From positions 1 through 46,529 of the forward strand of contig JACOWW010000004.1 in the NCBI GenBank assembly GCA_016176605.1: a DNA stretch of 46,529 bases. Reading direction: 5' to 3'. Position 1 is the stretch's first letter; every line of letters starts with the position of its first letter. Positions 3,318-36,594 of this stretch are shown one piece after another. The DNA comes from Candidatus Saccharimonadota bacterium. GTDB lineage: Bacteria > Patescibacteriota > Saccharimonadia > Saccharimonadales > UBA10212. A model generated the notes under the pieces. That model searched no databases, was not told the DNA's origin, and saw only the letters and a list, made by a program, of their open reading frames with translations. The translations under genes were made by a program, and so were the position numbers.

Positions 3318-5645
3318 TCATAATTTTTCCAATGGAGCAAAGGCAATATTTAATTTCTTAGTCCCCCTGCCCTTAAAATAAATGGTGGCTGTTTCACCCT
3401 CTAGTTCTAGTACCGTACCCCTGCCAAAAATTTGGTGTTTCACGCCGTCGCCTTCGACTAGGTCCATTACATAATGTGGTTCCTCATTGTCGTTTGGCAG
3501 CAGCATCTTGCCCACCGAAGCTTTAGCGTAGGCGGGTTCCAGTGCGGGGGCAGCTGAGGTGATGGCTTCGACATCGGCCAAAAAACGGCTGGGTAGATTA
3601 GCGCCGCGGCCGCCGAACAGCGTGCGCGAAATTGCATAAATCAAAAATAGTTCTTCGCGGGCGCGGGTCATGCCGACGTACATCAGCCGCCGTTCTTCTT
3701 CCATTTCGCTGGCATCATACAGGGCGCGACTGTGCGGCAAGACATTCTCTTCCAGGCCGGTGATAAAGACCACCGGAAATTCCAGTCCTTTGGCAGAGTG
3801 CAGAGTCATCAAAATCACGGCGTCGGAACTTAGATCAGCCTGATCAATGTCAGACACCAGTGCAACTTCTTCCAAAAAGCCGTCCAATCCGGCGTCTTGG
3901 AACTGGTTAGCCACACTAAGGAGTTCCTTGACGTTTTCAATTCTGGCCTCCCCTTGCGGCGTGCCGTCTTGCAGATAATGCAGATAGTCAAGCCGCCGCA
4001 TTAGTGACTCGATGGTGCGGGCCGGAGTCAGTTCGTCCACTTGGGCATGAAAGTCGGCGATTATGGCCGCCAAGTTGGCGAATCCGGCACGGGCTCTTTG
4101 CGTCAGCTCATCATTTTCACTTATTCTTTTCAGCGCTTCAAGCTGCGAGTAACCATTTTTGATTCGCCATTGATGGAAACCTAGAAGTGACTTAGCGCCC
4201 AGGCCGCGCGTTGGCACGTTAACAATGCGCTCGAAACTGACCGAGTCTTCCGGTTGGTAAATCAAGCGCAAATAAGCCATGATGTCTTTGATTTCTTTGC
4301 GCTCATAAAAACGCACGCCGCCGACAATACGATAAGGGATACCATAGCGAACAAAAACTTCTTCTATCGGGCGGCTTTGGGCGTTAGTGCGATACAGTAC
4401 GGCATAGTCGCGGTACTTACGAGCCTTTATGTCAACGCTGGCCCGGACGCGGCCGACAATGGCTTCGGCCTCGGCGCGCTCGCTGCCGACTTGTAAAATT
4501 TGCACCGGTGAGCCGCCGGCGGCGGCCGTCCATAACTTCTTGTTACTGCGGCTTTTATTTTGACTGATAACATTATGCGCTGCGTCCAATATGTTTTTAG
4601 TGCTGCGGTAGTTTTGCTCCAATTTGATAACGGCGCAGCCGGAAAAATCGTTTTCGAAATTTAATATGTTGCGGTAATCGGCGCCGCGCCAGGAATAGAT
4701 GCTTTGCCAGTCATCACCAACTACAGCGACATTTTTATGCGGCCCGGTCAGCAGCTTAACCAACTGATACTGTGCGGAGTTGGTGTCTTGGTACTCATCA
4801 ACCAAGATATAGCGAAATTGGACCTGCCATTTTTGGCGAATATCCCTTTGGCTTTTTAGCAATTTGACGGCCCGGCCGATGAGATCGTCAAAATCCAGAG
4901 AATTATTTTCTTTCAACAAATTTTCATAGGCCACAAAGACTTTGGCGGCAACTTTTCCGGCGGGGCTGGCGGCCGTTTCGGCAAATTCGGCCGGACCGAC
5001 CATTTCATTTTTGGCGCTGCTGATAAGCGACGCCAGTAGCCGCGCCGGGTATTTATTCTCATCTACACTCAAGTTTTTGGCGGCTTGTTTGACGGCGGCC
5101 AAGCGGTCAGCTTCGTCCCAAATCACAAAGTTGCTTGGTATACCAATAGCTTTGCCGTCCTGGCGAAGTATTCTTACGCAAATGCTATGAAAAGTCCCCA
5201 TAAAGGGCATCCACAAGCCACGTCCCGTGCCAGCCTGCCAGCCCCGACTAGTCGGGGCTGCACCGCTAGCACTCCGGGCGGATTGCGGCGTCAAAGGCTG
5301 CGCTTCTCCTTCACCGTATTGCATATACGGCTCAGTTTGATGCTCGCCTTTTCTTTGCACTCCATCCCGGGACGTGGCTTGTGGCGACATACTTAGTAAC
5401 TGTTGCAGGCGGGTGCGCATTTCGCCGGCGGCTTTGTTGGTAAAAGTTACTGCCAAAATATTAAAAGGCGTAGCCCTATGGCTAGCCAGCAGGTAGGCGA
5501 TGCGGTGCGTTAGTGTCTTGGTCTTGCCACTGCCGGCGCCGGCTAAAATCAGCAACGGCCCTTCAGTAGTTTTAATCGCCCTGGCCTGCTCCGGATTCAA
5601 ACCCTCCAATAAAAAATCAGTCCCCGCTACTCCTTGCGACATCAT
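3318..5645 (-). CDS. uvrD: UvrD/PcrA superfamily 1 DNA helicase with in-frame palindromic insertion
   Basis: ATP-dependent 3'-5' helicase of DNA repair and replication restart. Motifs appear in order: LAGAGSGKT (36-42, Walker A), VTFTNKAAGEM, GTFHSICVRIL, DEYQDTN, GDDWQSIYSWRGAD, EQNYRS, TLHSAKGLEFPVVF, EEERRLMYVGMTRA. The C-terminus carries a Tudor-like PcrA tail. Residues 88-145, just before GTFHS, are absent from ordinary UvrD proteins. They correspond exactly to a 174-bp palindromic element at 5211-5384 (58 codons, frame kept). A second, REP-like insertion near the C-terminus reads AYAKASVGK (3511-3536). TACAAT lies 6 nt before the second ATG, so translation may start at 5642 on a leaderless mRNA. 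Confidence 0.95.
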   Translation of the reverse strand: MMSQGVAGTDFLLEGLNPEQARAIKTTEGPLLILAGAGSGKTKTLTHRIAYLLASHRATPFNILAVTFTNKAAGEMRTRLQQLLSMSPQATSRDGVQRKGEHQTEPYMQYGEGEAQPLTPQSARSASGAAPTSRGWQAGTGRGLWMPFMGTFHSICVRILRQDGKAIGIPSNFVIWDEADRLAAVKQAAKNLSVDENKYPARLLASLISSAKNEMVGPAEFAETAASPAGKVAAKVFVAYENLLKENNSLDFDDLIGRAVKLLKSQRDIRQKWQVQFRYILVDEYQDTNSAQYQLVKLLTGPHKNVAVVGDDWQSIYSWRGADYRNILNFENDFSGCAVIKLEQNYRSTKNILDAAHNVISQNKSRSNKKLWTAAAGGSPVQILQVGSERAEAEAIVGRVRASVDIKARKYRDYAVLYRTNAQSRPIEEVFVRYGIPYRIVGGVRFYERKEIKDIMAYLRLIYQPEDSVSFERIVNVPTRGLGAKSLLGFHQWRIKNGYSQLEALKRISENDELTQRARAGFANLAAIIADFHAQVDELTPARTIESLMRRLDYLHYLQDGTPQGEARIENVKELLSVANQFQDAGLDGFLEEVALVSDIDQADLSSDAVILMTLHSAKGLEFPVVFITGLEENVLPHSRALYDASEMEEERRLMYVGMTRAREELFLIYAISRTLFGGRGANLPSRFLADVEAITSAAPALEPAYAKASVGKMLLPNDNEEPHYVMDLVEGDGVKHQIFGRGTVLELEGETATIYFKGRGTKKLNIAFAPLEKL
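3511..3536. repeat. REP-like palindrome inside uvrD
   Basis: The palindrome has arms CCCACCGAAGCTT and GCGTAGGCGGG and encodes AYAKASVGK in the helicase. Related sequence occurs at 31599-31622, about 22657-22684 and about 13381-13406. Confidence 0.7.
5211..5384 (-). repeat. large palindromic element (174 bp) inserted in frame in uvrD
   Basis: Perfect 17-bp terminal inverted repeats (CCACAAGCCACGTCCCG at 5211-5227; its complement at 5368-5384) bound 174 bp, exactly 58 codons. The core, read on the uvrD coding strand, contains ACTGAGCCGTATATGCAA and a CCGTAT/ATACGG hairpin, followed by GTGAAGGAG and CGCAGCC. The same core appears at 36413-36594, where the hairpin is GCGTAT/ATACGC, a compensatory change. 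An inner CAGCCCCGAC/GTCGGGGCTG hairpin lies near 5238-5261. Confidence 0.85.
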
Positions 5646-7084: not shown

Positions 7085-7927
7085 TTATTCCCCCTCTTTG
7101 CCGGCTTCATTGTCGCGCGGCCAGGTACCGCCTGGTGCCTGGCGCTGGGGGGTGCCGTCTGGTACCCCCCGCTGCCAGCGGTGTGCTGACTCTACTATAC
7201 CTGCGAAGGTTTCGTAGTTCAAACTGCTACGGCCGACCAAGAAGCCATCGACACCGGGGACTGATAGTATTCCCTGGACTACTTCCGGCGCCACGTCACC
7301 ACCGTACAACACACGTAAGTTTTTAGCTGCTTTTTCATTAAACACGTCCCTCACATAACCGCGAACGTAGTCGACCGCCGTTTGTATGAGGCTGGGCTTA
7401 GCAGCGACGTGGCCGATAGCCCACACCGGTTCGTAAGCAATAACTATGCTGCCAGCTTCGTGAGCAGTCAGGTTGCTAAGCGCGGTCATGAGCTGATCAT
7501 GCAAAACCTGTTTGGTTTCGCCCTCGTCACGCTCATGTTTGGTTTCGCCGATGCACAAGATCGGCGTGATCTCGTTGCGAATAGCTGCCGCTACCTTATC
7601 GCGGATCATCGGTAAATCTTCTGAAAATACATGCCGCCGTTCGCTATGACCGACAATCCCGTAATGTACCAGTTCGCGCAGCATGGTAAAGCTAACTTCG
7701 CCGGTAAAAGCACCTTCGTCATGAAAATAGGCGTTTTGGGAAGCCAGGCGGAACTTGCGCCGGTCAATTTGTAACGAAAGGGGCTGCAGTACTAACATGC
7801 TAGGCGCCAAAACCACCTCTATGTTGCGACGGATCTTAATCCGCTCTTGCAACCTATGTACCAGCAAACTGGCCTGGCTAGCGTTCAGATGCATTTTCCA
7901 ATTGCCTACGATTAAAAGTCTGCGCAT
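7085..7927 (-). CDS. tpiA: triosephosphate isomerase
   Basis: Interconverts dihydroxyacetone phosphate and glyceraldehyde 3-phosphate in glycolysis. The catalytic set is complete: GNWKMH (Lys11), GHSERR (His) and YEPVWAIG (Glu), plus the phosphate-binding VLYGGDV and GFLVGRSSL. Family members are near 250 aa; this one is 280 because of a tail after SAHRWQ (GVPDGTPQRQAPGG...) made from a GGTACC/CCAGG-rich palindromic stretch at about 7117-7170. The tail is therefore probably repeat-derived and not part of the fold. The gene lies downstream of pgk, the usual pairing, and is followed without a gap by a membrane-protein gene. Confidence 0.96.
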   Translation of the reverse strand: MRRLLIVGNWKMHLNASQASLLVHRLQERIKIRRNIEVVLAPSMLVLQPLSLQIDRRKFRLASQNAYFHDEGAFTGEVSFTMLRELVHYGIVGHSERRHVFSEDLPMIRDKVAAAIRNEITPILCIGETKHERDEGETKQVLHDQLMTALSNLTAHEAGSIVIAYEPVWAIGHVAAKPSLIQTAVDYVRGYVRDVFNEKAAKNLRVLYGGDVAPEVVQGILSVPGVDGFLVGRSSLNYETFAGIVESAHRWQRGVPDGTPQRQAPGGTWPRDNEAGKEGE

Positions 7928-36412: not shown

Positions 36413-36594
36413 CGCCAACAAGTAGCTACGCGTTTGGATGAAGCGCAAGGCGCAGGCGAGAAACGGACTGAGGCGTATATGCAATACGCTGAAGGAGTAT
36501 CGCAGCCTGCAACGCTGCGATTCGCCAAAAGCGCCGGCGCGATGCTACCGGCTCCGCCGGTGGGCAGGCCGGCGCGGCGCGTAGCTACTTGGCG
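36413..36594 (+). repeat. large palindromic element (182 bp) at the end of rny
   Basis: Arms CGCCAACAAGTAGCTACGCG (36413-36432) and CGCGTAGCTACTTGGCG (36578-36594) pair apart from a 3-nt insertion. The core matches the uvrD insertion: ACTGAGGCGTATATGCAA, hairpin GCGTAT/ATACGC, CTGAAGGAG and CGCAGCC. The right arm contains the rny stop codon and its last codons. Confidence 0.8.

Follow-up and report, generated by a model that had tools for sequence, protein, structure and literature searches.

The uvrD helicase gene of a Saccharibacteria genome is interrupted by a 174-bp palindrome that keeps its reading frame open and is very probably a mobile coding palindrome. With good probability, the insert is a single copy of a dispersed, non-autonomous palindromic element that occurs in Saccharibacteria and other Patescibacteria. 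The element is a new family, for which we found no relation to a known one. It was noticed in a window of 46,529 nucleotides (the whole stretch of DNA that was analysed, positions 1 to 46,529 of contig JACOWW010000004.1), where the original prediction had described the insert and a related copy. That prediction did not extend to the size of the family, to an outer stem that differs between loci or to antisense copies at stop codons.

A palindromic insert in the uvrD helicase gene

The 775-aa gene product gave Pfam matches to UvrD-helicase and UvrD_C, and its match to the PcrA family was below cut-off. The sense strand of the element is the uvrD coding strand, which is the minus strand of the window. 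The parts are listed by position in the window.

3318–5645, minus strand: uvrD/pcrA helicase gene (775 aa); the element encodes residues 88–145
5211–5384, minus strand: element copy in uvrD with outer stem (inverted repeats, open frame, fold, empty in relatives)
5220–5378, minus strand: conserved body, match to covariance model R1 of 156 positions (153 bits, E 1.7e-37; the copy is in the training set)
5368–5384, minus strand: 5' arm of outer stem P1 in sense orientation, CCACAAGCCACGTCCCG, perfect complement of 5211–5227
5211–5227, minus strand: 3' arm of P1, CGGGACGTGGCTTGTGG, inverted repeat
5314–5330, minus strand: terminal hairpin of arm A, CCGTAT-ATGCA-ATACGG (inverted repeats, fold)
5226–5273, minus strand: arm B, second branch of the three-way junction (fold and R1 match)

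As predicted, the element ends in perfect 17-bp inverted repeats (5211–5227 and 5368–5384), its 174 bp make 58 codons through which the uvrD frame is open, and it lies between LLSMS and MPFMGTFHS of the protein. The insert folds at −105.8 kcal/mol (z = −8.1 against shuffled sequence). In an alignment of UvrD with relatives, the closest named of which are Candidatus Saccharibacteria, the segment was absent from 27 proteins that run continuously across the site (LLG....NR.FMPFMGTFHS). A homologous segment throughout the relatives, which would have spoken against an insertion, was thus not found. UvrD of another member of the order (G048) contains an element copy near the same place. The net gain over the relatives is 52 codons (156 nt) and not the full 58, because the 17-bp arms partly replace or reuse host sequence; the CGTGGCTT part of the P1 3' arm aligns with the host codons R-G-F/L of relatives.

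Insert-encoded peptides would be of the DGVQ...GEHQTEPYMQYGEGEAQ type, and the UvrD insert is predicted to be disordered: AlphaFold modelled residues 88–142 as coil with a pLDDT of 23–32 between ordered flanks. A different kind of insert was seen in UvrD of two other Saccharibacteria (L224, 1480–4722; L227, 1423–4764). It is intein-like, has about 300 residues and is located between DDWQ and SIYS or SIYG, with Cys first and VVHN or AVHN last.

Family size and distribution

We searched with R1, a covariance model of 156 positions and 51 pairs built from 17 aligned copies of the first searches. Exactly two copies were found in the window (E = 2e-40 and 2e-37). Both belong to the 17 training sequences, so that the independent evidence is the family elsewhere. 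A plain DNA search of the same genome had already found further copies, and R1 detected 19 in this 728-kb Saccharibacteria genome (G000). Within the order, 46 of 61 sampled genomes carry the element, including all 16 of the same family, with up to about 38 copies per genome among the relatives. Across the phylum it occurs in at least 39 of 380 sampled genomes, a lower bound because few candidates per genome were scored. The covariance-model search proposed for the genome and its relatives thus returned 19 copies in the former and hundreds in the latter, and the possibility that the core has no further copies can be dropped. The UvrD loci of named Saccharibacteria and other members of the Candidate Phyla Radiation (CPR) gave one borderline match (E 0.01) and none that was convincing.

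Outside the phylum, 32 genomes yielded weak matches only, with E ≤ 0.01 in two Clostridia; the best were in one Clostridium and one Eubacteriales genome. They are located in rRNA/tRNA operon spacers or at a locus without such genes. The weak matches L287 and L291–L297 fall in 23S-5S, pre-16S and tRNA spacers of the two Clostridia, and those with annotated neighbours are in sense orientation. These spacer sequences may be distant relatives of the element. Rfam returned nothing except tRNA for 11 loci at E ≤ 1, and for the window and loci together tRNA and rRNA only, with one sub-threshold sRNA match elsewhere. Searches of phage, plasmid and viral contig (IMG/VR) sequences gave no match. No description of the family was found in the literature, of which our coverage is incomplete.

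Fold and covariation

Three stems meet in the consensus, a three-way junction: the outer stem P1, arm B, and the long arm A, which is capped by the CCGTAT hairpin. In the 112 distinct copies analysed, pairing is intact in 94.9% of pair cells, and for 49 of the 51 pairs both sides have changed. The covariation score was 0.731 in an alignment that was fitted to the model, which favours the score; shuffles scored 0.244, and sliding the partners gave no more than 0.10. An unfitted alignment gave the same picture (47 of 55 pairs). The compensatory change that had been noticed between the two core hairpins of the window (CCGTAT/ATACGG versus GCGTAT/ATACGC) is real. Orthologous copies also display double changes in situ, seven in S6 (G000/G002) and ten in L095/L168. 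Cells with G-T outnumber those with A-C (204 versus 66, leaving out three pairs, two of which are conserved wobbles), which indicates that the sense strand is the folded strand.

Covariation of this kind could be mostly mutational if template switching homogenised the arms and so kept the fold without selection on function. Such switching has been described for RNA hairpins (PMC8794818) and proposed for the coding palindromes of Nematomorpha (PMC6649704), and this explanation fits the perfect arms as well as the host coding ends that are copied in inverted form. A strand-symmetric DNA process, however, would not give G-T over A-C at three to one. The consensus also contains two conserved G-U pairs and unpaired positions that never vary, which point to selection or to recognition of one strand. 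We therefore regard a mostly mutational origin as rather unlikely; template switching may act together with selection.

The outer stem and copies between genes

The second copy in the window is intergenic and abuts rny, the gene of RNase Y.

36413–36594, plus strand: second copy, intergenic, antisense to and abutting rny (fold; R1 match 36425–36582, 164.5 bits)
36578–36591, plus strand: 3' arm of its P1, holding the rny stop codon (36585–36587) and last lysine codon
36419–36432, plus strand: 5' arm of its P1, CAAGTAGCTACGCG, inverted copy of the rny 3' end

This copy had been predicted at 36413–36594 with other arms and the same core, and both features were confirmed; it folds at −105 kcal/mol (z = −6.3 against shuffled sequence). 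In element-free relatives the last codons of rny are GCC AAG TAG or synonymous ones; in the window copy, the far arm contains that end in inverted form. Elsewhere in the window (7115–7175), the triosephosphate isomerase gene contains two in-frame GC-rich hairpins at its 3' end. They encode a C-terminal tail of repetitive sequence and may be a further palindromic insertion.

Pairing in P1 reaches about 10 bp past the model and then falls to background level, and no pairing is seen when P1 arms are taken from different copies. Between non-syntenic copies with a core identity of at least 0.70, mean P1 identity was 0.32 (271 pairs), whereas between syntenic copies it was 0.35–0.80 (p = 5e-5); one non-syntenic pair, L106/L134, is an exception and has a common P1. 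P1 is thus unrelated between loci and kept between orthologues, so it was seemingly set at insertion. That it was then maintained by selection or template switching is the simplest reading. In a within-genome donor test P1 did not track arm A; neither did arm B, which makes the test weak. Since arm B retains almost no common ancestry between paralogous copies, the P1 result may partly reflect loss of signal.

Many copies outside genes abut gene 3' ends. A stop codon lies inside the outer part of P1 for 23 of 31 antisense neighbours, compared with 5 of 19 sense neighbours. In 18 of the 23 antisense cases, all three nucleotides of the stop codon pair with the far arm, and the pairing takes in about 5 coding nucleotides on average. 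The outer stem might be built from the target, by copying a host flank, including coding and stop codons, in inverted form to the other side, possibly templated by hairpin RNA or single-stranded DNA. Each copy would then possess a target-specific palindrome of about 15 bp. We think this origin unlikely as matters stand; if true, a target-built P1 would mark insertions in a manner that differs from target-site duplication.

The position of these copies also bears on whether resident elements have been domesticated as regulatory RNAs or transcription terminators, with the copies in genes as accidents. The non-genic copies do sit at gene 3' ends, with the stop codon in P1 for most antisense neighbours (23/31), and their structure is kept in orthologues. 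Being antisense to the preceding gene, however, they present its transcript with the less favourable strand. As many as 29 of 109 copies are inside genes, and few sites are common to different species. A resident regulatory role is consequently improbable as an explanation of the family.

Copies inside genes

Gene context was read for 109 full copies, with in-gene status assigned by ORF continuity, which is partly circular. A long sense ORF spans 31 of the 109; we read 26 of these as gene-internal and five as N-terminal or in pilin-like genes, the true start codons of the latter five being uncertain. With three antisense copies (two, from different families, in the tRNA-guanine transglycosylase gene, the third in an alkyltransferase-like gene), the in-frame internal copies number 29. 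A single frame is used by 24 of the 26 sense internal copies. The peptide of frame s0 is hydrophilic (GRAVY −0.74, compared with about 0 to +0.3 for the antisense frames), and it is open in only 29% of copies outside genes, whereas every copy found inside a gene keeps the frame of its host open. Among 14 doubtful neighbours that we inspected, none was a split gene.

Host functions were assigned from Pfam matches and from reading of the sequences, and several Pfam domain matches are interrupted by the element. DNA repair and replication genes account for 12 of the 29 hosts (four MutM, two UvrD, two UDG, and one each of UvrC, RarA, DnaG and the alkyltransferase-like gene). Clean empty sites were found in relatives for MurE, Der, a Mur ligase and MutM. 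By hand count the net gains are 156 nt in UvrD, 171 in MurE, 174 in Der, 165 in the Mur ligase and 171 in MutM. Because the frames are open, the insert would be translated, and it is presumably tolerated as a surface loop.

The two antisense copies in tRNA-guanine transglycosylase (L115 and L087) are at corresponding positions in genomes of two families. Two copies (L113 and L128), in genomes of different families, occupy the same methyltransferase locus at positions some 170 nt apart, one within the gene and the other just downstream. At L142, three copies are fused near the N-termini of consecutive pilin-like (type IV prepilin) genes of one genome (G006).

The in-gene copies could instead belong to an RNA-level element that is removed from the mRNA, like a small intron (self-splicing or processed), or skipped in it, like a ribosome-bypass hairpin. 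This would agree with the strongly conserved fold, the G-U pairs on the sense strand, the nearly constant sense orientation in genes and the possible relatives in sense orientation in rRNA/tRNA operon spacers of two Clostridia. An element of this kind is nevertheless very improbable, given that the frame is open in all in-gene copies while s0 is open in only 29% of the non-genic ones, that the three antisense in-gene copies are still in frame, that no out-of-frame split gene occurred among the 14 doubtful sites and that an Rfam intron or ribozyme match is absent. An ancestral, lineage-specific UvrD domain, to which the G048 copy near the same place might point, is refuted by the empty sites of 27 relatives and by the same fold dispersed in other genes and between genes.

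A candidate mobiliser

For the coding palindrome, new copies would arise by DNA transposition in trans, with the single-stranded sense strand as the recognised form. The best candidate mobiliser would be a REP-associated (Y1/HUH) tyrosine transposase (RAYT), which leaves no target duplication. P1 would form, or become perfect, separately at every site. Template switching on the hairpin is the favoured route, one host flank being copied in inverted form to the opposite side. Template switching as the step that forms P1 has, in our judgement, slightly less than an even chance of being correct, and the RAYT step, put forward tentatively, somewhat less.

A RAYT-type Y1_Tnp match above cut-off was obtained in 21 of 61 genomes, all 21 of which have copies, compared with 25 carriers among the 40 genomes without one (Fisher p = 0.001, a test that ignores phylogeny). 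The RAYT-type protein matched NCBIfam REP_Tyr_transpos at E 4e-12, below the family cut-off. A RAYT gene is flanked by copies in G048 (L180) and has one copy beside it in G011 (L186). Overall the linkage is modest: by our own count, a copy lies no more than 2 kb from about 5 of the 36 RAYT genes. A Y1 transposase was not found in G000, which is 89% complete, so the RAYT link is suggestive only. No genome contains near-identical copies (highest core identity about 0.81), and recent transposition was therefore not seen. Replication-strand bias was absent in G048 (16 leading, 22 lagging; hand count). A reverse transcriptase was rejected as mobiliser, being present in 3 of 21 relatives and not in G000.

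Comparison with known systems

Until now, protein-coding palindromes were known chiefly from Rickettsiales. The present family is larger, apparently unrelated and strongly conserved in structure, and it behaves in the same way in the CPR, whose genomes are otherwise streamlined. Selfish DNA can thus add disordered loops to essential proteins, and hundreds of natural insertions could reveal what makes an insert tolerable. The family also offers a clear example of covariation whose origin may in part be mutational. CPR proteins with such inserts risk being mistaken for novel domains.

A group I or II intron or known ribozyme is not indicated (only tRNA matched in Rfam at 11 loci, E ≤ 1). MITEs, which have conserved terminal inverted repeats and target-site duplications, differ from the element, whose outer arms are different at every locus and whose MurE site has no apparent duplication. 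The enterobacterial RU-1, RU-2 and RU-3 are MITE-like, 103–168 bp long, found within genes and contribute amino acids (PMC2759123); compared by description, they are likewise small mobile sequences in genes, in an unrelated host group. Intragenic REPs are often located in replication and repair genes including the UvrD/Rep helicase (PMC3733652). Our element resembles REPs and REPINs in being palindromic, mostly downstream of genes and found in repair and replication hosts, and in the RAYT-type proteins of relatives. Unlike REPs (20–40 bp with a GTAG or CGTC tag), it has about 156 nt and no such tag at its consensus ends, and RAYT is absent from many carrier genomes. In the mitochondrial coding palindromes of Nematomorpha, perfect inverted repeats have arms that change together (PMC6649704); there both arms encode conserved protein, whereas here the palindrome is an insertion.

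The closest likeness in behaviour is to the Rickettsia (RPE) and Wolbachia palindromic elements, which are dispersed, about 100–150 bp long and located in ORFs with the frame intact, at solvent-exposed positions and in recurrent host genes (PMC3767692). The RPE-like behaviour that had been proposed was borne out in the in-frame insertion into tolerated loops, mostly in one frame, and in the predicted disorder of the peptide. The present element is likewise a dispersed palindrome (19 copies in G000), slightly longer with its body of 156 nt plus outer stem. Its 29 internal in-frame copies left their hosts undestroyed, with empty sites in relatives, and AlphaFold predicts a disordered insert peptide between ordered flanks. 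This likeness refers to RPE behaviour as described and carries no claim of membership. The element differs from RPEs in its phylum, its longer three-way junction, its strong covariation and its locus-specific outer stem.
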